A DNA stretch of 25,379 bases from Triparma columacea (Eukaryota; Sar; Bolidophyceae; Parmales; Triparmaceae): positions 1 to 25,379 of the forward strand of contig BRYA01000235.1 of assembly GCA_030267965.1 (NCBI GenBank), written 5' to 3'. Below, piece after piece: positions 1,028 through 24,847 of this stretch. Positions within the stretch are counted from its first letter, which is position 1; each line of letters opens with the position of its first letter. The translations under genes and the position numbers were made by a program. The notes under the pieces were generated by a model. The model saw only the letters and a program-made list of their open reading frames with translations, made no database searches and was not told where the DNA came from.

Positions 1028-4000
1028 TTAGCCTTCATACTTGAGTCCAGACAAAAGCATTGTCATTCCAGAACCACTGCTTTTATCTCCATCCTTGTCG
1101 CCTTCCTTGTCGTCTTCAGACTTAGCTTTCATCTCTTCTTCCTTTAATGAAACTTTACTTTGCTTCACCTCAACTGGCTCTTGCATGAAGCCATCATTTA
1201 AAATACCATCTAGAAAGCTTGGCTTTTTCTCAATCCCATCTGCAGCTAAGGCTGCTCCTCTCATTGGATCTGCTGCTGCCATCTTGCCCTTGCTTGCAGG
1301 TTCAAGAAATCTAGGCTTTTTGTCTATTCCTTTTTTCTTCCTCAGCATGTCATTTCCACTTTGCTGCATTCCAGATTCGAAAAGCTTTTTCTGGAAGAAT
1401 TTTATCATCTCCTTGAAGGCTGGTCTCTCCTTAGGATTTGCGTCCCAGCACCTTCTCATAATGTCTGCAAGCTCTTTATCTTCCTGCTCTACCAACGTCA
1501 GGTCAGGCCTCCAGCCATTTGACACCCTGTTCATCACAACCATTGGTCCCCATCCCTTTTTGAAGGCCTTCTTGATTTCTCCATCATAAAAGATTTCTAA
1601 CAGCAGCATACCGTATGAGTACACATCAACTTCCTTTGAGTACATTTTATCATCTTCTTCAGAGCTGAAGACCTCTGGAGCCATAAAGTAGGGAGTCCCA
1701 ACAGTGGTCATTGTTTTCTCGACTTCTCCTCCACCTAAGTGCCTGCTCTCTCCAAAGTCAGTGATCTTTGCAGTAAGGTCGTTGCTAACAAGGACATTAG
1801 CGCACTTCAAGTCCCTATGCACTATTGGAGGGTGTTTGCCATGAAGAAAGGCACAACCCTGTGCAACCCCAAGAGCCCAGGCAGATTTGAGTCCAACACC
1901 ATGATTAAGAAGGTCAGACATTACTGATCCTTTCTCAATTTTTGTCGTCTCTGCCTTCTCTTGGGCCTCTAAGACAACAGATGATTTCTGCCAGCTCATT
2001 AGCATATGGTATTCCTCATTGTTCCTGAAAAAGTCGTCAAGAGCGCCGTTCTTGCACAGCTCAAACATGATTCCATGTTCCTTGGTCTCCCAGACAACTC
2101 CCAGACACTGCGCAATGTTAGGGTGCCTTAGGGAACCAATTAGCTTGAGTTCCATGAAGAACCTCTCCATAGTTTCATGGTTTAGATGTGTAGGCAGGAT
2201 TTCCTTGTAGGCGCACATGGTTCCATGGTAGTCTGCAAGTAGCACATTTCCAAAGGCTCCCTTACCAAGTGAAATTTTGTCTCCCTTCTCATCCCTTTGG
2301 AACTCAACCTCAAAACTTTCGACGAGTAGCGAATGCTCAATATTATCTCTTGAGATTTTACTAGCTGTGTCTCCACTGCTAATCTTGAAGGCTTCAATCT
2401 CCTCGCTCTTGTCAAAGTCCTTTCTAAGAGTTGAGATCTGACTGAGAAAGTTCGAAGCAAAAATGTTGACAAATGAGGGTGGGATGTGGCCCTTTGGGTG
2501 GAAGTTACGGGGGTTGGGGTTAGTTAGTTTGGAATACATTGTCGCTGGGACCTTTTCACGTAAATCCGTCTGCACTCTCCCCCCCACATTCCTCATTCCG
2601 TCCACTCCTCACCTTCATGTCAACCTTTGCAGTAAATGTAAGTTTTGTCTGAGGTACATCTCCTATTGCGTCTGTTGGCTCATATACATAGGTTGTCTGT
2701 GCTTCAACCAAGACATTACCTTTCTTGACAGGGTACTTCTTCTTCATGGCCTCAGAATCCAAAGAGCTGATTATCATACTGCCATCTTCCTGCTTCTTCC
2801 AAGTCAATATGTTCCTCCCATCTCGAGCAGCCATCCCAGGGATTCCCATATTTCTTGAAGTGATGTAGTAGAGGGTGTGGGGGTTGACATGCTCAACCTT
2901 CAAGTGTGTTACTCCATTTCTTTCTGCATTCCGCTTCTTTGTCCTACTATCAAGATGAACTATAGCCCAGGCTGCACCTTCCTCAGCAATTGTGTCTAGA
3001 GTGGTTGAAGCAACTACTGTTGCCACAACCTCTCCTTCTAAGTAGAACATTTTCATGTCAACTCTTTCGTCAGGGCTCTTTATGTTCTTTGCCTTGGTTT
3101 CAATTTCCTTGCACCTCAAATGGAATTCAATGCCCTTTTCGATTTGCTTCTCCTCTTCAGTTGTATAAGCTTGAACCTGGTTCTTCATTTCGTTTGCCGT
3201 CTTTGCAATTGCTATGTTGTCAAATTGACTGTCACTCAGGAAACTTTCTGATGGAGCAACAACTGAAAGCTTACTGATTGCACTTGGAATGCCCTCTTTT
3301 GAAACAGCTGGGTGCTTGTTGAAATAAAAGTAGCTGGAGAGAAGAGCTATAACCAAAACAGCTGCTGCAAGGCCAGCCAAAAGAGTAGAGTAGCTGTCCG
3401 ATTTGTCTTCCTTTGCGACAATTACCATAGATTCAGTTTCATTGCAGTGAATTCCACCAAACCCTGAGATACACAGTGTGCAGGTACATTGTCCTGCAAT
3501 TCCTCTTACACTTCCTCCATTTATGCAGTAGAAGTTACCATTTGAACCGTCATCCGAAGAAGAGTTTGTTGCAACGCAAGGTGTTAGCACACACTCAGTG
3601 TAAGATGCTCGAAGACCTGCAATGCTTCCATATGTTCCTAGAATAGAGCCTTTGTGAAGGGTGTTTCATGAGTGAGTCTTGAGTGAATCGAGCGTTAAAA
3701 GCTTTTAAAATATTGTCTTACCTAGGATTGGAGTGTTGGAAGAGTAGGGAGAAGGGCACGTATTGTGGATGGTGATGGTTCCATCATTGTTGTAAATATC
3801 ATCACCATTTCCTGAGTCTGCTGTGTTTCCATTGAAGCTTGTTCCGTAGATTTTGACAGTAGTTCCACTATCTTGAACAAAAATTGCTCCACCTCCCCAA
3901 TCACTGTCTGCAGCTCTATTGTTGGAGAAGGCTACGAGCTCCAAATCAACTGTGGCATTCTGAAGAATGTTAACCCCTCCACCAGTATCACCATACCCCT

Positions 4001-7000
4001 TGTCGAAGGTGAGAGCTCGGAGAATAAGTGTACCATTCCCAGTTCCTTCCACATATATCACACTTCTTTCATTCTCTCCATCCAACACACAGCTTGCGTT
4101 GTCCTCCACACACTTGACCTCTCCATTTAAGTTTCTTGTGGCAAGCATGTCCTCACTATCTGCACAAGTCCCATGTGAGCATTTATACGATCCAACAGCT
4201 AGAATCACAGTGTCACCATTCGCCATGGTGGAGTTGCCAGTGTTACTGCCGCTATACACTCCATTACTGACAGTGTTGAACAATACATTCATGTCGCTTA
4301 CATAATGAGGGTTTTGACAACTAATACCATCAAATCCAGTGTTGCAAGAAGAACAGGTGCAGGAGCCAGTAGTTCCACCAATGTCCCCCCCATTGATGCA
4401 GTAGAAGTTACCATCAGACCCATTGTCAATAGAGGTTGACGTGGCTAGACAAGGATCAGGAGAGCAATCATCAGGAGATGATCCACTATAGCCTGTTGCA
4501 CAGATAGCACAGTGTGGACCACCGAAGCCAGTGTTGCAGGAAGTACAAGTGCAAAGTGAGCCATATCCTCCAACATCTCCCCCATTGATGCAGTAGAAGT
4601 TTCCATCAGACCCATCATCAGAGGGAGTGCTGCTGGCAACACAGGGATTGCCAAGGCAGTCAGAGTACGAGTATTTATCGCCGTTGACGGTGCCATAAGT
4701 GTCCAAAGAGGATCCTGTGGGAGGAAATGAATTGGTGCAGCGGTAGCGTAAAGTGAGTTGTGGGGTTAGGATTGATTCTATAGACTACACAATCCTCATT
4801 CTCGTCTTACCTTGGATTGGAGTGTTGGAGGAGTGGGGAGAAGGGCACGTATTGTGGATGGTGATGGTTCCACCATAGTTGTCAATATCATCACCATCTC
4901 CTGAGTCTGCTGTATTTCCATTGAAGCTTGTTCCGTAAACATTGACATTAGTTCCACTACTCTGAACTAAAATTGCTCCACCTCCTTCTCCATCACTACC
5001 AGTTGTAGCTCTATTGTTGGAGAAGATACAGAGCTCCAAGTCCACTATGGCATCATCATCAATGACAACCCCTCCACCATACTCAGCAGACCCCTTGTCG
5101 AAGGTGAGAGCTCGGAGAATGAGTATTCCACTCCCAGTTCCTTGCACATACATCACTCTTCTTTCATTCTCTCCATCCAAAACACAGCTTGCGTTGTCCT
5201 CCACACACTTGACCTCTCCATTCAAGTGTTCAGTCCACAGCATGTCCTCACTATCTGCACAAGTCCCCTCTGAGCATTTATACGGCCCAACAGCTAGAAT
5301 TGCAGTTTCACCATTCGCCATGGTGGAGTTGCCAGTGTTACTGCCGCTATAATCTCCATTACTGACAGTGTTGAACAGTCCATTCATCCCCACCACGTTC
5401 ACCTGAGCTCCTGTGCAGCTAAAGTACGAGTATTTATTGCCAATGACGGTGCCATAAGTGTCCAAAGCGGATCCTGTGGGAGGAAATGAGTTGGTGCAGC
5501 GGTAGCGTATAGTGAGTTGTGGGGTTAGGAATGGTTCTATAGACTACACAATCCTCATGCTCGTCTTACCTTGGATTGGAGTGTTGGAGGAGTAGGGAGA
5601 AGGGCATGTATTGTGGATGATGATGGATGGTAAACCATGAGTGTTTCTGTAAATGTCATCACCATTTCCTGAGTCTGCTGTGTTTCCATAGAAGCTTGTT
5701 CCGTAGATATTGACAGTAGTTCCACTATCCTGAACAAAAATTGCTCCACCTCCAAAATCACTGTCTATATCTCTATTGTTGGAGAAGGCTAAGAGCTCCA
5801 AGTCTACTACGGCACCATCTTCAATGGTAACCCCTCCACCAGAACTGCCATACCCCTTGTCGAAGGTGAGAGCTCGGAGAATAAGTCTACCACTCCCAGT
5901 TCCAGCCACCCACATCCCTCCTCTTTCATTCTCTCCATCCAACACACAGCTTGCGTTGTCCTCCACACACTTGACCCCTCCATTCAAGTCTTCTGTGTAC
6001 AGCGTGCTCTCACTATCTGCACAAGTCCCCTTTGAGCATTTATACGGCCCAACAGATAAAATTGTAGTGTCACCGTTCGCCATGATGGAGTTGCCAGTGT
6101 TACAGTCATCACACACTCCGTTACTGACCGTGTTGAACAGCCCATTCATCCCGACCACATTAACCTTGGCTCCTGTGCAGCCAAAGTACGAGTATTTATC
6201 GCCCCCTACGGTGCCATAAGTGTTCAAAGCGGACCCTGTGAAAGCAGAGAGGTGGGAATAGGAATTGGTGCAGCGGTAACGTAAAGCGAGTGAGTTGTGG
6301 GGTTAGGAATGATTCTATAGACTACACAATCCTCATTCTCGTCTTACCTTGGATTGGAGTGTTGGAAGAGTAGGAAGAAGGGCACGTATTGTGGATGATG
6401 ATGGTTCCAGGATCGTCTTGGTAGTTACAAACATCATGACCATTTCCTGAGTCTGCTGTATTTCCATTGAAGCTTGTTCCGTAGATATTGACTATAGTTC
6501 CACTAGGGTTACCATAGACATAAATTGCTCCACCTCCTTCTCCATCACTACCAGTTGTAGCTCTATTGTTGGAGAAGACTAAGAGCTCCAAGTCCACTAT
6601 GGCACCACCTTCAATGACAACCCCTCCACCAAAACTATAATAGTCATTAGCATACCCATTGTCGAAGGTGAGAGCTCGGAGAATAAGTGTTCTAACCCCA
6701 GTTCCATACACCCACATCCCTCTTCCTGCATTCTCTCCATCCAACACACAGCTTGCGTTGTCCTCCACACACTTGACCTCTCCATTCAAGTCATCTGTGT
6801 ACAGCATGATAGTACTAGTTGCACAAGTCCCCTGTGAGCATTTATATGGCCCAACAGCTAGAATTGCAGTTTCACCATTTGCCATGATGGAGTTGTAGTT
6901 GCCAGTGTTATAATCGTCATACACTCCATTACTGACCGTGTTGAACAGCCCGTTCATATCGACCACATGATGTACAGTGCTTTCACAGCTACGCCCTCCA

Positions 7001-10000
7001 AACCCAATGTCGCAAGAAGAGCAGGTGCAGGAGCCAGTAGTCCCGCTAATGTCCCCCCCATTGATGCAGTAGAAGTTACCATCAGACCCATCGTCAGTAG
7101 AGGTTGATGTGGCTTGACAAGGATCAGGAGAGCAGTTGTCAGGAGGTGTGCCACTGTAGCCTGTTGCACAGACAGCACAGCTTGGACCACCTAAGCCAGT
7201 GTTGCAGGTGCAGGTGCAAGATGAGCCATCCTCATCCCACCAACCACCAACATCTCCCCCATTAATGCAGTAGAAGTTTCCATCAGACCCTTCATCAGAG
7301 GGAGTGCTGCTGGCAACACAGGGGTAGGAAGCACAGTTTGGACCATCGAAGCCAGTGTTGCAGGAAGTGCACGTGCAAAATGAGCCATCGTTGTTCCACC
7401 AACCTCCAACATCTCCCCCACTAATGCAGTAGAAGTTCCCATCAGACCCATCATCAGATGGTGAGGTGGTGGCAACACAGGGATTTAAACAATCTGTGAA
7501 GGAGTATTTATTGCCTCCAATGGTGCCATAAGTGTCCAAAGCGGTCCCTAATTAGGAGAGAGGGAGGAATATGAATTGGTGCAGTGGTAACATAAAGTGA
7601 GTTGTGTGGTTAGGAATGGTTCTACAGACTACACAATCCTCATTCTCGTCTTACCTTGGGTTGGAGTGTTGGAGGAGTAGGGAGAAGGGCACGTATTGTG
7701 GATGGTGATGATTCCATCAAATCTTTTAATATCATCACCATTTCCTGGGTCTGCTGTGTTTCTAGAGAAGCTTGTTCCGTAAACATTGACATTAGTTCCA
7801 CTACTCTTAACATAAATTGCTCCACCTCCTTCTTCATCATTAGGAGTTGTAGCTCTATTGTTGGAGAAGACTAAGAGCTCCAAGTCCGCTGTGGCACCAC
7901 TCCAAATTAAAACCCCTCCACCATAATCAGCATACCCATTGTCGAAGGTGAGAGCTCGGAGTATAAGTGTTCCACTCCCAGTTCCTTCAACAATCATCCC
8001 TCTTCTTTGATTCTCTCCATCCAACACACAGCTTGCGTTGTCCTCAACACACTTGACCTCTCCATACAACTCATATGTCCACAGCATGCCATAACTACCT
8101 GAACAAGTCCCCTCTGAGCATTTATACGGCCCAACAGCTAGAATCGTAGTGTCACCATTCACCATGATAGAGTTGCCAATGTTAGCGACATAGTCCATAT
8201 CAGCATAATTACTGACCGTGTTGAACAATACATTCATGTCAACCACATGATGTATAGTGAACCCGCAAAGCGTAACTTCCAACTTCCTCCCCTCCTCAGC
8301 CACGCTCATCCCCCCGCTAACTTCCTCAGAAGCAACGAGACTGACCAAAACGCTGAGTCCTAGCAGGCACTTGCAGAACCAACCAAGTTTCCCAACTCTC
8401 TTGGCCACTGACCTTCCAGTTGGCTCATTCTTCGATCTGATCTTCGAAAGGGCGCAACCGCTCGCCCTGACAATAAGGGAGGCAAAGAATCCCACTAGGC
8501 ACAGAAGGTAGCTTATGGTTGTGCTAGTACTCGTATATGACGAGATGATCTCACTTATGTGGAGTCTGTCGCGCAAATTGGAGTCAAGGGCGTTGTCCCT
8601 TCGTTGGAAATTACCACCGTGGTGTGCCTCTTCCCTCGACCACTCAACGTTGCAGTCGTTGTAGTTCCCGTCGTCGTCGCCGCTGCAGTCATGAGATTTC
8701 CCGCGCCGGAAGGATTGCGCGGTCTCCGTTAGCGTCAATAGTGACTGCGTCGATGGCGGTAATCTTCCCTTTGAGCATCGAGAAACTAATCTTGCCTCTT
8801 CGCCCACTTTGAAGTTCAGGTGTAAAATTGGTGCAGTGCTCGTCTCACGTTCGTCGGTCATTGTCGAGTTGCTCCTTTTAATCCTATCTGCTATGCGACC
8901 GTCGATGAAACCTATCAGTTGTTCCAAATCAGGGGGCATGATGACTGCTGCCTCGCACTTGGTCACGTTGAGCTTTGAAAGTAGCCCGTCGCTGGTCGTG
9001 CGTTTAGCGGGCCGCAGAGTAGCCGGTAGCCTGGCGGTTCTAATATCATCCTCCTTCGCGACTGGGCCGCCAATGGAAGCGTTGAAAACGCTCAAGTTTA
9101 ATATTTCGATTCCAGCATGAGGTTGGAAGCCAGAATTTTCTGCCTCGTTTTCTGAGGCTGTGAAGGGTGAAACCAAAAAAGTGAGAATTAGAAACACCAC
9201 CCCAAAAAGTTCCCTATTGACCAACGAACGACCAAAATGCCTGCCTATTACTCGGCCTCTCGACGCGTACTCACCTCGTCCTTCCCCTCGACCACCCCAT
9301 TTCACCAACACTAAGTTGACAACATCTCGCCTCACACTCCGTTTAGAAACAGCGAAGGCGCCTATTTCGGCGTTATCTACTCTCCATGAGCAGGAGAGTT
9401 TATTGGTAGATGAAACGGTACAAAGCTCCTCAACTTCCGAAGCTTTCATTAATTCATGCTTCGTCTTCAGCTGTTGTTGCCCAAACTTTGCACTGCTATC
9501 GTCGAGAAGTATTGCACATCCTTCTAAGGGATCGTCCTTCCCGATGTTGTTAACAAGCTCGTAGGGCTTACACTGTACCTCGCATGCCGTCAGTGCCCTC
9601 GATTCCTTGTCATTCTTCTCTTGATCTGTGTGGAGAAAAGCAAGGAGCGAAGCAAATCACAATTTGTTTTCATTAGTTTGCGTTACAGTCGCATCGGGGC
9701 GGCAGCAGTATTTTTTGAGGAAGACATCGGGGTGATCCGGCCTTACTCCGTCATGGTTATCATTATTCATTGCGCACTAAAACTTCTCCTGATGCTCACC
9801 TTCATAAACGAGAATAATCCGCTCTGCTGCATTCTGCCCACTCTTTTCAATTTTGTTGTCGAGTGGTGTCAACTCGTCGTCAAGCAGGAGCTCGCCCATC
9901 CCCCCTGTGAGGAGGGCGTCGTAGGCATCGCGTTTCGATAATGCTGCCCTAAAGGCCTTAACGTCCTTGACATTTGTTTCTGATGAGCGAAGCGAAATGA

Positions 10001-17200: not shown

Positions 17201-20200
17201 AGCACGCTGCTCCCTCCCCCTGTATCTTCCTTTTGGCTAAGCTCCTGTTGTCCCTCTCCTTCCCTCTTTCCCTCCTTCTTTCCTTCCTCTTCTCCCTCTT
17301 CCGCCTCTTCCGCCTCCTTCGCCTCCCCCTCCTCCTTTTCTTCCTCCCCTTCTTCCTCCTCTTCCTCTTCCTCCCCTTCCTCTTCTTCTTCCTCCTCCTC
17401 CTCTGGGTATTCAAACAAGTCCTCCACCACCTTTTTGGGTGACGATTTATTAATCCTGGGCGGTGACTTCGGCGCGTGCGACGACGAGAATTCCGCCGCT
17501 GCCGATTTACTTGGTGACAGTGGCGTGTAAAAGTCTGCGACAATTCCGTGCGCTTTTTTGGGCTCGTAAGAGGCCGCTCCTTTTCGGGTCTCTTCTTCCC
17601 TTGCGGCGGCCTCTTGGGCCTGCTCCATCCTCTCCCTAGCCTCCTTGCTTAGGTTGGAGTAGACCCTTCCAATGGCGCCTTTTGACGTTATGGTTCCGTC
17701 CTCCCCCCTCTTCCTCCCCACGATGGGTGAGCTTGCGATTCCGATGGCCGCGAGCCGGTCTGTCGTGAGGCTGACCTTCTTCTCAAATTCGAACCCCCTC
17801 TGCGAGAGGCGCATCATCTCGGCTTTGAGCTGCTTGTGGTTCATATCCCCCCTCTCCCACTCTTGCATAAGGTTCGAGGTCATTTCGTCGGATGACGCCA
17901 TGCGCTGGGCCATCTCCTTCATCTGTGATCTCATTTCCACCATTATTGACTGCGATGGGAGGAGTTGGTGAGATCAACTGGGTTGAAGAGCAAATAAAGT
18001 TGTCTATATATACGCTCCAACTCTCACCTGCATCTCGTCCTTTGAGTCCTTGAGCATCTTTATTTCGTCCTTCCACTTGTCCTCGCTCTCCGCGGCGAGG
18101 GAGTTTGGCATCGTCGCCGTCAGCGCCCCAGGCATAACTGCCACCACCTCGCTCTGTTCTTTTTTCTGAGGAGGCACCTCGACGATCCCCAGGACCATCG
18201 ACCTGAGGCCGTCAATCTCCTTCAACAGATCTGCCTCCCTCCTTTCGAATTTTGACTCGAGCAGCGAGAGCTTCTCGTCGCTCACCACCTCGTCGTTTTC
18301 GCCCGCGACATTGAGCTCGTTCAGCCTCCGCAGCTCTTTCTCCGTCAAGCTTTGGTCCAGTACGTCCCCCCCCCCTTTCCTAGAGTTCCGAGTCCCTCCC
18401 TTGTGTTGTGGTGGCCTTATCGAACCATCTTTCAAGTTGTTGTAAACATTTTCTTTTCCCCCTCCCGTCTTTTCCGCCTTGCTACCCCTGCTGTTGATCC
18501 CGTCTCTGCTGCTCGCCTGGCTGCTACCCCTCTGACTTTCCTGCTGGCTCGACGCCGTCGACCCGGATGACTTGGCCATCCTGATCGCTTCCTCGAGCTT
18601 CTGTTTCAGCCTACTAATCTCCTTCTGCGCGCGCTTCAAGAGGATAGCGTCATTCACGACCTCGTTCACTTGGATCTTTGCAGCCACTCGCGTGGCCCTG
18701 TTTGCGAACTGCAGAGTGCTTGCAGACTGAAGAGGTAAAGGGGGGTGAGTAGGGGGGAGGGGTCATCTCATTAAGTAAGTCCAATTCTCTCACCTCCTCC
18801 TGATTATTCGGGTGCGGAGAAACTGTCGCAATGACGACCGTCCTCGTGCTCCCCCCCAAGCTGTCCTGCAACAACCTTGTTAGCGGGCTGTCCCTATACG
18901 GGATGTGGTTCCTCTTCTTGCTGGCGAGGGCGGATATGCAGTTACCTAGAGTTGCGAGGGAGGAGTTGATCTACAAAGAGAGAGAGGGAGGGAGTTAGAT
19001 AGAGCCGGAGCGGTAAGTAAGGTCGGCGTCAAACGAGAAGAATGGCTCACCTTGACCAGCTCCTTGGTTGTCTCGTTGTCCTTCTCCCCGGTGCCCCACT
19101 TTTCGCTTCCCGCGAGGTCAACCAAGTTAAGCTTGGCCTTCCTCGTAATGATCCTTCCGTCTGACTCCGGTATCTCCACCTCTATCGAGAGCTGCAGGAT
19201 GGCGTGGCTCCTGCTGCTCTGCTCGTTGTATTCCGTCGCCCTGACCTGCCTGTGCCTGCCCCCCTGGTAGAGCAAGAGGAGGACGTCCTCCGTGGTGCTT
19301 ACCCTGTACTCGGATAGCCCTTGGACGTACAAATTTTTACCCTGCGCGGTGTTGTTCTCTCTTATGCTTAGGGCTTTAGGCTTCCCACGCCTGTCCTTCT
19401 CGTCATTGAGAAGGTCGTAGAGTAGGTCGTTGTATATCTGCATATACGAGCACATGACCGTGAACTGAGGACGGGGGTTGGAGAGAAGGGGAGGAGGGGG
19501 GTGAGTGTACAGGTTGATTTCCTTCGGATTGCTCTCCTCCGGATTGCTCTCCTCCGGATTGCTCTCCTCCGGATTGCTCTCCTCCGTTATAAGAGGGCTC
19601 CACACTCTCTCCAACAAACTCCCTCCAACACTCACCTTTTCTCCCCCCTGTCCCTGGTTAAATTCTTTGTCGTTCCCCAGTAATCTCCCCCCCGGACTCC
19701 CCGCCACAATACTCTTAGTGTCGAATACGCTCCCCTTCCTTCCCCTCCTTCCCCCTCCCCTGCTTCCCCCCCCCCCTCCAATAGAGTTTAGGCTGTCAAA
19801 AAGCTGGTGGAGGCTCCTCGGTATCACGCCCCACCCCGCAGTGTTCTTGGATATCTCGCTCTGCATCTGTGCCCAGCTTGTCTTCTTCGACACCTGGCTC
19901 TCCAGCCCCTCGCCTAGCATGGTGTGCGTCTTCCCGGTTCCCGTCTGGCCGTACGCGAACACAGTAGTGTTGACGCCTGAAACGACCTGACTTATGGCGG
20001 GCTGGATCCACTTGAAGACGTCCTCCTGGGTCGCGTCCTCCCCGCACGCCGCGTCGAACTTGAACTGGAGCCAGCCTTTCTTGTCCCTGGTCTTGATGCT
20101 TAGGGCGCCGGTTGTAGGGGCGCCCTTTTTGACGTCGACTTTTACGGAACGGTCTTTGGAGAGACCGGAGACGGGACGGATGCGGACGAGGACATGGACG

Positions 20201-20788
20201 CGCTCGGATTTTATCTGGGGTCCATCGCCGGAGGTGGTGCTAAAGCCGGTGAAGGGCGAATTCAAGGAGGAGGGAGGGGGGGGGTTGGAGGAAGAGGGAA
20301 TGTTGTTAATGTTGTTAATGTTGTTAATGTTGTTAATGTTGTTAATGTTGTTAATGTTGTTGTCGGAGGATTGGAAGGGTGGAGTGGAGGGGCCGAAGGA
20401 CGTGTCGACGGTCAGCTTGTGGTGCGGTAATACTACATTCTCGTTGCTGTGGGTGTGTGGGAGAGGGGGGTAATGGGTAATGTTGAGAAATGTTGTTGTG
20501 AGTGTTGTCCTCTCTTCTCCTCTCTCACTAACCCTCAATTTCCTCCCCCACACACACAAACCCCCTGGCCCCTCACCTATTCTCCCCCTCTCCCTTGCTC
20601 CCTTCCCCTTCTTTATATACATCCCTATCAAAGTCCCCCTCAGTCTTGCTCAAAACACTCAGATCCTCATCGCTTATCACTTCATCTCTCCCATCATCGT
20701 CTTCGTACCCATCTTCTTCGGTTGGCATTATTAAATCCGGGTCGTAGATGGGCAAGGAAGGTGTCTGAGTGGGCGGTTGTTCGGACAT
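14233..20788 (-). CDS. N-terminal-motor kinesin with SH3 domain and zinc-knuckle-like repeats
   Basis: Exons: 20788-20577, 20446-19636, 19464-19051, 18970-18794, 18726-18028, 17949-14233; 6,030 nt, about 2,009 residues. Junctions are GT-AG and in frame (phase 2, then phase 0 throughout). The start is the first ATG, giving [13 protein letters not shown]. An acidic and Asn-rich leader of about 150 residues precedes the motor (153-550), a microtubule-dependent ATPase. Then come coiled-coil stretches (about 555-585, 650-680, 772-850), a Glu-rich block (17270-17405), SH3 (1308-1364), three Cys-His knuckles (1476-1627) and a poly-Gly basic tail. It could move or tether cargo along microtubules, with SH3 and knuckles as partner-binding parts (inference). 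I cannot place it in a named kinesin family. The 3,717-nt last exon is low-complexity in places and might hide an intron. Confidence 0.85.
14440..14590 (-). repeat. Poly-glycine coding low-complexity tract
   Basis: The + strand is CCT/CCC triplets; the minus strand encodes a near-continuous Gly run broken by Lys, Arg and Ser near the kinesin C-terminus. Length polymorphism is likely. Confidence 0.85.
15382..15417 (-). other. Cys-His knuckle, copy 3
   Basis: [12 protein letters not shown], residues 1616-1627, 64 residues after copy 2. The intervening sequence is Gly- and Ser-rich and disordered-looking. Confidence 0.7.
15574..15609 (-). other. Cys-His knuckle, copy 2
   Basis: [12 protein letters not shown], residues 1552-1563, 76 residues after copy 1, same spacing of Cys and His. 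Confidence 0.7.
15802..15837 (-). other. Cys-His knuckle, copy 1
   Basis: [12 protein letters not shown], residues 1476-1487, pattern C-x2-H-x4-C-x2-C, preceded by a Pro. Three Cys and one His could bind one zinc ion (inference). Confidence 0.7.
16172..16341 (-). other. SH3 domain in kinesin tail
   Basis: Residues about 1308-1364. The sequence carries the SH3 signature order: [20 protein letters not shown] (ALYDY-like), [17 protein letters not shown] with the paired Trp, and [11 protein letters not shown] (the PSNYV-like ending). All ligand-groove aromatics and the proline are present, so binding of Pro-rich partners is expected. Confidence 0.92.
17270..17405 (-). repeat. Glutamate-rich low-complexity tract
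   Basis: GAG/GAA codons give a long acidic block with some Gly, Ala and Lys in the kinesin tail. It lies between the coiled coil and the SH3 domain. Confidence 0.85.
18690..20205 (-). other. Kinesin motor domain
   Basis: Motor hallmarks in order: [13 protein letters not shown]-loop GQTGTGKT (237-244), [13 protein letters not shown], switch I NEQSSRSH (421-428), switch [10 protein letters not shown] (455-462), [15 protein letters not shown], and the [20 protein letters not shown] helix. All ATPase motifs are intact. A Gly/Arg-rich insert of about 45 residues (ending GQGGEK) sits after LFDSLNS, just before the intron 19465-19635. A neck segment ([14 protein letters not shown]) follows. Confidence 0.95.
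19525..19586. repeat. 15-bp minisatellite inside kinesin intron
   Basis: GGATTGCTCTCCTCC is repeated four times in the intron 19465-19635. That intron is 171 nt, a multiple of three, and has no in-frame stop, so if it were retained the repeat would encode EESNP units in the motor domain. Confidence 0.85.
20300..20361 (-). repeat. 9-bp repeat encoding Asn-Asn-Ile units
   Basis: GTTGTTAAT on the + strand occurs six times in perfect tandem; in the kinesin frame it encodes seven consecutive NNI units (residues 100-120) upstream of the motor domain. Confidence 0.9.
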
Positions 20789-21372: not shown

Positions 21373-22179
21373 ATGTCCTCTAAATTCAATATGCAACAAA
21401 AGCTGGCTCAATTAGATGGCGCTGAATGGGATAGTAGCTCTGATGATGAGCCTAAAATGGTTACTTCAAAGCGTAAAAATAAGACAAAAGAATTTGATTC
21501 TCAGTCAAACATTATCTCCCTCAATTCCACTGATTCCAACTCCAACACAAGCAACAACAACGCAAAAACAAAAGGTAAACGACTACAAAGGAAAGGGAAC
21601 GTCATGAGCAGCGTCGTTTACCTCGGTCACCTCCCCGCTGGCTTTGAGGAGGAGGAGCTCGGAGGGTTCCTTTCACAGTTTGGTGATGTTATCGGCCTCC
21701 ACGTGTCCCGCTCCAAGCGCACCGGGAACCCCAAGGGTTACGCCTTCGTGAAGTTCCGCGACGCCGAGACCGCGGGCATAGTCTCAGAGACCATGTCAGG
21801 CTACTTCCTCATGGAGCGCCGCCTCATTTCCCACGTCGTCGCTGAGAAGGACGTCAGGCCGGACATGTTCAGCGGCAAGTTCAGGAAGGTCGACTGGGTG
21901 GGGATCCACAGGGACAAGGTCAACAGGGTAAGGACCGCCGAGGAGGAGGAGAAGAGGGAGAAGAAGGGTAGGGGCAAGCTGGCCAAGAAGATGGACAAGC
22001 TCAAGGCTATGGGACTGGTGGACTACAGTGTGGACGAGCTCGTGGGCGGAGGGGCGGCTGGGAAGAAGAAGAAGGAGGAGAAAGAGGTGAAGAAGAAGGC
22101 AGCGGCGAAGAAGGGGAAGGGGAAGAAAAGGGTCAGCGGGGAGGGGGCAGAGGCTGCTGGAAAGCGTAAGAAGCGATAA
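21373..22179 (+). CDS. NOP15: NIFK/Nop15-like nucleolar RRM protein
   Basis: A single-exon frame of 268 residues. One RRM spans about 79-157, with RNP2 VVYLGHL (81-87) and RNP1 KGYAFVKF (121-128). The phrases YLGHLPAGFEEEELGGFLSQFGDV, IVSETMSGYFLMERR and the following VVAEKDVRPDMFSGKFRKVDW closely follow the order found in NIFK (vertebrate) and Nop15 (yeast), which act in large-ribosomal-subunit assembly in the nucleolus. The N-terminus is Ser/Asn-rich and the C-terminus is a Lys-rich tail suited to nucleolar targeting. Codons are AT-rich up to about 21600 and GC-rich afterwards. It is divergent from the kinesin and convergent with the FTO-like gene, whose stop is 55 bp away. Orthology rests on one domain plus the flanking motif. 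Confidence 0.85.
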   Translation: MSSKFNMQQKLAQLDGAEWDSSSDDEPKMVTSKRKNKTKEFDSQSNIISLNSTDSNSNTSNNNAKTKGKRLQRKGNVMSSVVYLGHLPAGFEEEELGGFLSQFGDVIGLHVSRSKRTGNPKGYAFVKFRDAETAGIVSETMSGYFLMERRLISHVVAEKDVRPDMFSGKFRKVDWVGIHRDKVNRVRTAEEEEKREKKGRGKLAKKMDKLKAMGLVDYSVDELVGGGAAGKKKKEEKEVKKKAAAKKGKGKKRVSGEGAEAAGKRKKR

Positions 22180-22234: not shown

Positions 22235-24847
22235 TCAGAACCGCTTCTTCTTCTTCTTTTTCTTCCCATCCCCCCCCACACCCTCGGCGCCCCCGCCACC
22301 CCCCTCCCTCTTCTTCCCTCCCTTCTTCTTCCCCCCCTTGTTCTTCCCCCCCTTGTTAATCCCCCCCTTGTTCATCCCCCCCTTGTTCTCCCCCCCCCCC
22401 TCCCCCTCCCCAGTCCTCTCAATAACCTCAAACAAGCTCCTCAATCTCCTTTCGATCCTCACCCCCTCACCCCCCCTCCCCCTTTCCCCCTCCCCGTACC
22501 TCCCGAATTCCCCAACCCTCCACCCATAAACGACCTCAGTCTGACCCTCCTTCCACCCGTACCCGCTATCCCTCTTAACCAAGTGCTTACCCTCGTCGGC
22601 CTCGAAGGTTTCCCTGCTCTCGTACGTTTTGCACTCTACGAAGGTCGCCCAGCCTGCCCACCTAACGCCCCGGAGGTCGTCCCCTGATAGGGCGTCCCCT
22701 CTTGGGAGCGTGCTAACCCCGTCCGTACCCTTATCAACCTCCATAATTTCGACCCTCCTCCCCATCAGTCGTTTCGGTATCTTGTACCTTCTCGTCTCAA
22801 TATTTTTCCTCCCCCCCAGTAATTCCCCCGCCCACGGCTTTTGCATCTCAAGTCCAATCGTAGTCCCTTCCCTCCCCCACCCTTCCCACTCCTCTCCTCC
22901 CTTCCCCCCTTCCCCCCCCACCTCTGGCATCCCCTCTACGTTCCACGTACACTCCCCTCCCCCCGCGTAACAATTCCCCCACCCCCTAACGCACTCTGCG
23001 ATATCCTTAAGCCCAGTTTCAGGTAGTCTGCTTACCCCTAAGACCTCATCCCCCCCCTCCCCCCCCCTACCAGCCTCCTCCTCCTTGACCCCAAATTTGA
23101 GAGGTACGTCCATAGGTCTCCATATTTCCTCAAGTGTGTTAAAGACTTGGTCCCCAACTCTTTTCCTCCACCCTTCTCTAACCCTATCCATCCTCTCTAA
23201 CCCCTCCGCAAAAAGTTCGTATATTTCATTCCCCCCAACCTTCCCCCCCCCCCTACTCTCCACCTCTTTCATGCCTTTTAAAGCCTTGACGATTTTCTTA
23301 CCCTCCTTACCACCTCCACCTCTTAAACCTCTCCTCCCCATGGCCGCTCTCCTAACCCAAATTAGAACGGAAAGGATTCTGCCTTCGATTTTCTCCCACC
23401 CTTCAACAAGTTCCTTAATCCACCCCCCCCATTCCTTCCATTTGATATCCTTATGTCCTTCACCTTGTATATAGAACTGTCTAATCCACTCAGTTTCAAC
23501 TTCCACCCATACCTGAAGTTCATTCCTGAATACGTTCGTACCTTTCTTATTGAAGTTATTAACCGTCCCTTTAACCCTCCCTATAATATCGTCAACATGA
23601 CCGCCTTTTCTAATAAGTCTATGCGTGGATGAGTACCTAACCGTCGGTGGTCTTCTTTGAGAATCCGATGATTCCAAAGGTGATAATACTGCGTGCTGGT
23701 GGTGGTGGTTGAAATCGTCTAGTAGGTAATACGACGAGTTGTTGTCCAACGGTAACGCTACCGTAGGGTTCACGGGGTTTGAGGAGGCCTGCTGTTGCTG
23801 GGGTGGGGGGGAGGGGGAGGTTGTTGTTGCGTTCTGTGTATTTGCACCTCGAGTGTTCATGGTAGGACCTTCAGCGTCTCTAACAACTTTAAGCGCAACC
23901 CTCCATTTCATATCGTCCTTATCAAGCGGACGGTCTTCAACAAGTTCCCCAGTTTCAGCGTCAACGACAGCCTGGTAGACAGCTATGCTTGAGAAGTTCT
24001 GAAGGCTAGAGTCAGCGTGCCAGCTGACGTTCGTGCGGGACGTTTTGAAGTCGGGCTCCTTCTTTAACTTGTTGGAGGTGGGACCGGAGGAGGAGTAGCT
24101 GGACATGCGGTTTATCAGAGCTACAGTGTACTTGTTGCTGCCGGTTGTGGGGTAGCTACGATCCAAGGTGAGCTGAGCAAGGTGACCCTTTGTTCTGCGG
24201 AGGAGAGTTAGGGGGGGGGGGGTTAGAAGACGGGTTAGAAGACGTGTCGTTCCGTGTGTTGCTTCCTGTGTCCTGTGTGTTGCTCTGTCTTGTTTCTCTT
24301 CGTTCCGTCTTTGTATCTTCCCCCCCTCCTCCCCCCCTCCCTCTCTCACCTCTCCTCAAGCCATTCGTTGAGGTCCTTAATCCCCCCATCCCCCGCATCT
24401 CCCCAGTAACTGCTGAACATCCTTAGTCCAAGGTACTTATAAGTCGTACCCCTCTCCCCCAACAGGCATCTTGTCACGTAAGTCTTAGCGCAGGGTGTAC
24501 CGAGGCCGAATGGCTGTGTAACGTCTGACTGATAAAGGGGGGACAACTTCTGGAGAGTGGAAAGGATGGAAGTTGGAGGAAGAGAGGATGGGAGAGTTGA
24601 GGGTGGGTCTATTACACAACCTTTGAAACATGTTTTTAGTGCAATGTTGTATAGCTGTGGGGGGGTGTGAGGGGGGAGGGGAGGGGGTGGTTAAAGAGGT
24701 GTTATTTGGGGAAAGGAGGGGAAAGGAGGGGAAAGAGAGAGGTTGTCTTACCTCTTCATCGAGTGTCTTTGTGAGAAAGTTTTGTTTATAGACAGCTGGT
24801 AAGATTTGTGGGTAATTTATTGGGTATTTTGTTGCACTAGGTGCCAT
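22235..24847 (-). CDS. FTO: FTO-like RNA demethylase fused to an ASCH domain
   Basis: Exons 24847-24752, 24654-24350, 24194-22235 (2,361 nt, 786 residues); introns 97 and 155 nt, phases 0 and 2. FTO is a Fe(II)/2-oxoglutarate dioxygenase of the AlkB family that removes methyl from m6A and m6Am in RNA. Matches to FTO in order: TYKYLGLRMFSSYW, the SNKYTVALINRM stretch, NVSWHADSSLQNFSSIAVY with the metal pair H193 and D195, WRVALKV, YYLLDDFNHHHQHAVL, RYSSTHR with the second metal His (325), then VETEWIRQFYIQG and the helical C-terminal domain. A Gln/Pro/Ser-rich insert of about 35 residues lies in the catalytic core. After the FTO domain comes an ASCH domain (about 579-699) and a repetitive NKGG/KKGG basic tail. 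Human FTO is about 505 residues, so the extra length is C-terminal plus insert. Start chosen as the ATG giving MAPSATKYPINYP, whose exon splices in frame. Confidence 0.9.
22330..22400 (-). repeat. Short repeats encoding NKGG units
   Basis: CCCCCCCTTGTT-type units of 15 nt repeat on the + strand and encode GGENKGG, MNKGG, INKGG, KNKGG, KKKGG in the tail of the FTO-like protein. The tail ends in a run of Lys (KKKKKKK) that could act as a nuclear signal. Confidence 0.8.
22499..22861 (-). other. ASCH (PUA-like) domain at C-terminus of FTO-like protein
   Basis: Residues about 579-699. The ASCH hallmark is TIGLEMQKPWAGELLGGRKN followed by IETRRYKIPKRLMGRRVEI, i.e. the KPWA...GxKxxETR...P...G core. 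It ends with YESRETFEADEGKHLV...YGWRVGEF, matching the late strands of the family. ASCH belongs to the PUA-like superfamily, with YTH and EVE relatives, and is thought to bind RNA. Confidence 0.8.

Follow-up and report, generated by a model that had tools for sequence, protein, structure and literature searches.

Triparma columacea, a marine relative of the diatoms that bears silica scales (Bolidophyceae, Parmales), encodes a protein in which a dioxygenase of the family of FTO, the human enzyme linked to obesity, is joined to an ASCH domain in one reading frame, a combination that was confirmed to be genuine. The gene for this protein occupies 24847-22235 on the minus strand of the window, the 25,379-nucleotide stretch of contig BRYA01000235.1 that was analyzed, and consists of three exons separated by two GT-AG introns: exon 1 (24752-24847, 96 nt, start codon at 24847), exon 2 (24350-24654, 305 nt), encoding the N-terminal part of the FTO catalytic domain, and exon 3 (22235-24194, 1960 nt including the stop codon), encoding the rest of the catalytic domain, the FTO C-terminal domain, a linker, the ASCH domain, and a basic tail. 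The spliced 786-residue product is identical at every letter to TrCOL_g3314 (P0001) of T. columacea. In the list of open reading frames (ORFs), exon 3 is a single frame of 704 residues that stays open from midway through the catalytic domain up to the end of the protein, and both the FTO C-terminal domain and ASCH lie inside it, with no intron at their joint. We read the protein, at a probability of roughly 0.6, as an Fe(II)/2-oxoglutarate-dependent demethylase of the FTO family, ochrophyte type, whose C-terminal ASCH domain and basic tail dock on nucleic acid and do not form a YqfB-type enzyme.

The architecture itself is already known. Tung et al. 2015 (PMC4354923) described a C-terminal ASCH domain on the FTO proteins of several algae, in the same order and with one ASCH copy, a clue that led them to the binding of mammalian FTO to TRIP4, itself an ASCH protein; the T. 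columacea copy is therefore one further member, and the original prediction erred in holding that known FTO proteins lack a PUA-superfamily domain. This was the sole relevant paper found in a full-text literature search on FTO with ASCH, which also listed a seagrass review (PMC11821081), and a term search of Sanchez-Pulido and Andrade-Navarro 2007 (PMC2241624), which places FTO in Ostreococcus and diatoms, gave no mention of ASCH. What is new here is the T. columacea copy, its domain limits, and the wide spread of FTO-ASCH, together with a second FTO gene in this genome that lacks ASCH, a clade of ASCH proteins that stand alone, a recurrent terminal Arg-Tyr/Phe end, and serine where human FTO has Glu234.

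The catalytic part is well supported as an FTO dioxygenase by its domains, its predicted fold, and its conserved metal and 2-oxoglutarate residues. On the 704-residue exon 3 frame, FTO_NTD (PF12933) scored 113.9 bits (E 1.1e-32) and FTO_CTD (PF12934) 62.2 bits (E 7.2e-17), both against a curated cut-off of 27, and a further FTO_NTD match fell in exon 2 at 24388-24651. The catalytic domain (23591-24760, approximately residues 30-335) is spread over all three exons and is supported by PF12933, alignment with human FTO, conserved residues, and fold; the C-terminal helical domain (23096-23590, approximately residues 336-500) is supported by PF12934, and the fold match to human FTO extends up to residue 545. 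In a full-length structure model, the match list was filled by FTO and AlkB folds, and the ASCH part was modeled separately. Alignment with human FTO places the metal triad at H193 and D195 (HxD, 24011-24019) and H301 (23693-23695), and the 2-oxoglutarate arginines at R320 (23636-23638) and R326 (23618-23620). A protein search with the FTO region returned 354 proteins at E ≤ 0.001, and the counts given below for FTO relatives cover 120 listed proteins of these. All five residues are unchanged in 120/120, and R94, the counterpart of human R96, is kept in 118 with a gap in the other two. The base-contacting Glu234 of human FTO is replaced by S196 (24008-24010), and serine occupies this position in every one of the 120 relatives. 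The R96/E234 base-contacting pair is a vertebrate trait, and only putatively a defining mark of the FTO family.

The ASCH domain spans 22415-22867 (residues 577-727), is supported by profile, fold model, and structure matches, and carries the GxKxxExR motif, as defined for ASCH in PMC6803910, as GRKNIETR at 22790-22813 (residues 595-602). Pfam by itself does not establish the domain on the T. columacea chain: with the region cut out, PF04266 reached 14 to 14.9 bits, short of its cut-off of 21.2, and it was unlisted for the 704-residue frame. Among relatives, P0018 (Nitzschia sp.) exceeds this cut-off at 26.3 bits, and 22 of 25 domains matched PF04266 at E ≤ 1 (best 1.2e-6). A profile built from 80 relatives, with P0001 and P0002 left out, scored 170 bits on the T. 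columacea region, whereas none of 1000 shuffles exceeded 5.6. The isolated domain was modeled with a mean predicted local distance difference test (pLDDT) score of 93.1, and its top Foldseek and VIA matches were ASCH structures. A single-domain phmmer search against solved structures gave no match, and a profile built from 25 members found 15 with E ≤ 10, the best at 0.026, which is weak evidence alone. The original prediction of a full FTO protein and an ASCH domain in one frame is thus upheld by the open exon 3, the FTO_NTD and FTO_CTD scores above cut-off, and the 170-bit profile match. The profile check that it proposed, for all three domains in one chain, gave both FTO domains above cut-off, while PF04266 stayed under 21.2 at 14.9 bits; the ASCH domain is wider than the residues 579-699 that it named.

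Conservation was measured on 80 of the 82 ASCH-bearing relatives, two with a partial end having been dropped. In the motif, K597 and R602 are kept in 80/80 and E600 in 79/80, and E583, Q585, Y604, Y658, H671, and W692 are invariant (80/80). Mean pairwise identity was highest in the catalytic domain (0.58), followed by the FTO C-terminal domain (0.52) and ASCH (0.47), and fell to 0.33 in the linker (22868-23095, approximately residues 501-576), the least conserved part. The low-complexity Gly/Lys-rich tail (22238-22414, residues 728-786) ends in KKKKKKKRF. A terminal Arg-Tyr or Arg-Phe after a basic run was found in 65/120 relatives (56/82 with ASCH and 9/38 without) and is perhaps a nuclear or nucleolar signal.

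The architecture recurs in other algae: ASCH is present in 82/120 relatives and absent in 38/120. Named carriers include proteins of Triparma, Cylindrotheca, Nitzschia, Pseudo-nitzschia, Phaeothamnion, Discosporangium, and Chrysoparadoxa, and FTO is not confined to vertebrates and one or two algae, as shown by the 354 proteins, with named ones from diatoms and from the last three of these genera. On a quick, unrooted FTO tree that took in 106 of the 120 relatives, ASCH presence required 6 changes, gains or losses alike, compared to 21.9 with shuffled labels, and the Triparma protein grouped with P0002 beside the Phaeothamnion, Discosporangium, and Chrysoparadoxa proteins. Of the 38 proteins lacking ASCH, some are short and likely incomplete, while the nine that retain the basic R-Y/F end of the family probably do lack the domain. 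An indication that FTO-ASCH is rare was rejected: a search with the ASCH region, guided by whole-protein length, had matched only itself among 453 candidates, which was a word-sampling miss because the FTO-region search gave 82 proteins with the same domain. Scans for the ASCH subfamily with one or two short peptide patterns gave 6 pattern-matching stretches in prokaryote genome contigs and 2 and 4 in viral contigs, 0 of them confirmed.

Within the T. columacea genome, a search with the FTO-borne ASCH protein as query matched a single place, the FTO-ASCH gene. A Pfam ASCH scan of the whole genome gave 0 matches and cannot show the absence of other ASCH genes, because it missed this known copy as well. 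At 695-2916 on the minus strand of contig C299 lies the second FTO gene; its frame ends in a lysine-rich tail, and the ASCH profile found no match in its 3.5-kb locus. For the MT-A70 (N6-methyladenosine, or m6A, writer) and YTH (reader) families, the genome search came up empty, but its controls were equally silent and it does not establish their absence.

The role that we propose for the ASCH domain is drawn by analogy. Since some other ASCH domains, those of TRIP4 and ZmASCH, bind nucleic acid, with the TRIP4 domain raising DNA affinity (PMC10076317), the FTO-borne domain and basic tail would bind nucleic acid or a nucleic-acid-processing complex and could thereby bring the oxidase to its substrate, the domain acting as a docking module and probably not as a second enzyme of the YqfB type. 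Demethylation of m6A and N6,2′-O-dimethyladenosine (m6Am) by algal FTO-ASCH, and the choice of transcripts by ASCH, are putative only. Several points weigh against this interpretation. YqfB-type ASCH enzymes were without nucleic acid binding in one study (PMC9599836), and EOLA1 gave no match in an RNA aptamer screen (PMC6803910). Mutation of R96 or E234 abolishes human FTO activity according to a review (PMC7835257), and because Ser196 replaces this glutamate, the substrate of the algal enzyme may differ from that of human FTO. Finally, ASCH is dispensable for some FTO functions, as the 38 relatives without it, nine of them with an intact basic end, and the second T. columacea FTO gene indicate.

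The closest competitor, which we hold to be improbable though worth weighing, is that ASCH mainly docks on protein and, like the separate TRIP4 of mammals, keeps FTO within an ASC-1-like complex, with no direct reading of nucleic acid. In mammals, residues 30-48 and 249-269 of FTO mediate its binding to TRIP4 (PMC4354923), and the ASCH domain of TRIP4 packs on the ASCC3 helicase (PMC10076317). In T. columacea, no ASCH was found in the 3.1-kb locus of the TRIP4-like zf-C2HC5 gene on contig C449, and the FTO-borne domain could therefore substitute for that of TRIP4. However, the TRIP4 domain also raises DNA affinity, as noted above, and the nearly invariant K597/E600/R602 pocket motif would be unneeded for a pure docking surface.

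Slightly less probable still is a distinct eraser in which the serine pocket accepts a different methylated base or context, selected through the ASCH pocket (Glu583/Gln585/Lys597/Glu600/Arg602), and whose two halves were separated in one centric-diatom lineage yet still cooperate, like mammalian FTO and TRIP4. A search for stand-alone ASCH proteins, restricted by a length limit to short proteins, found 55 with an FTO-type ASCH domain, 15 of which keep the R-Y/F end. Some are pieces of FTO genes, such as a Fragilaria protein named RNA N6-methyladenosine dioxygenase, whose domain is identical to that of the fused P0065. One clade, supported at 94 by the Shimodaira-Hasegawa-like approximate likelihood ratio test (SH-aLRT), contains 19 of the 48 short proteins placed in the tree, including those of Cyclotella atomus and C. 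cf. meneghiniana; its members (within P0144-P0169) have a Met start in 19/19, a WxGW lead-in in 17/19, and the basic end in 0/19. The FTO tree in turn holds a clade of 13 proteins without ASCH among diatom-like sequences. Fission of FTO-ASCH into two genes, which would require that both clades come from the same organisms, is a lead only.

It is unlikely that ASCH is a second enzyme, an amidohydrolase or ribonuclease, acting on the same RNA. YqfB and its relatives hydrolyze N4-acetylcytidine (PMC9599836), ZmASCH, with residues of interest at Tyr47, Lys53, and Ser128, cuts single-stranded RNA, and the fold of the FTO-borne domain matches both types. The Thr nucleophile of YqfB, three residues after the motif Lys, is nevertheless Glu in 79/80 relatives (Glu600 in T. 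columacea) and Asp in 1/80 when matched by motif position, and we set the ribonuclease or deacetylase reading lower because this Thr is absent.

That two neighboring genes were joined artificially, whether in gene calling or through an assembly error, is very improbable. The T. columacea gene predictions were made from a protein database only (PMC10328945), and exon 3 has many homopolymer runs, but one intron-free open frame crosses the joint and the same order recurs in the 82 relatives from other assemblies, among them P0004 and P0110, labeled as complete ORFs of MMETSP transcripts, which hold FTO and the ASCH region in one protein even though Pfam ASCH is below cut-off in P0110 and not listed at all in P0004.

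FTO is heavily studied, and how it is guided to its substrates is still debated. Human FTO (6ak4, 3lfm, 5zmd) has Glu234 and no ASCH, whereas the T. columacea protein has serine, ASCH, and a C-terminal basic tail. EOLA1 (CXorf40A), TTHA0113, and ZmASCH are stand-alone proteins, while the FTO-borne subfamily is marked by a Glu583 and a Gln585 of its own, both invariant (80/80). In TRIP4/ASC-1 the domain is joined to a zinc finger, in algal FTO-ASCH to a dioxygenase, and by sequence and fold score the FTO-borne domain groups with ASCH instead of the YTH m6A readers. A natural fusion points to a partner of FTO, a logic that already gave the mammalian FTO-TRIP4 interaction (PMC4354923). Its recurrence in diatoms, Parmales, and other ochrophytes, with a paralogue lacking ASCH in the same cell, provides a clean protein pair for the contribution of ASCH, and the Ser-for-Glu change warns against taking algal FTO as an m6A eraser.

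Elsewhere in the window, an RRM protein (21373-22179, plus strand; PF00076, 45.9 bits) is convergent with the FTO gene, with about 55 bases between their stop codons, and a kinesin motor domain is encoded at 18946-20631 on the minus strand (PF00225, 197.8 bits). At 1028-9449, also on the minus strand, a kinase frame (1028-2605) stands beside several mutually repeating frames with Cys-rich stretches, and together they may form a single large gene for a receptor-like kinase whose outer part is repeated.
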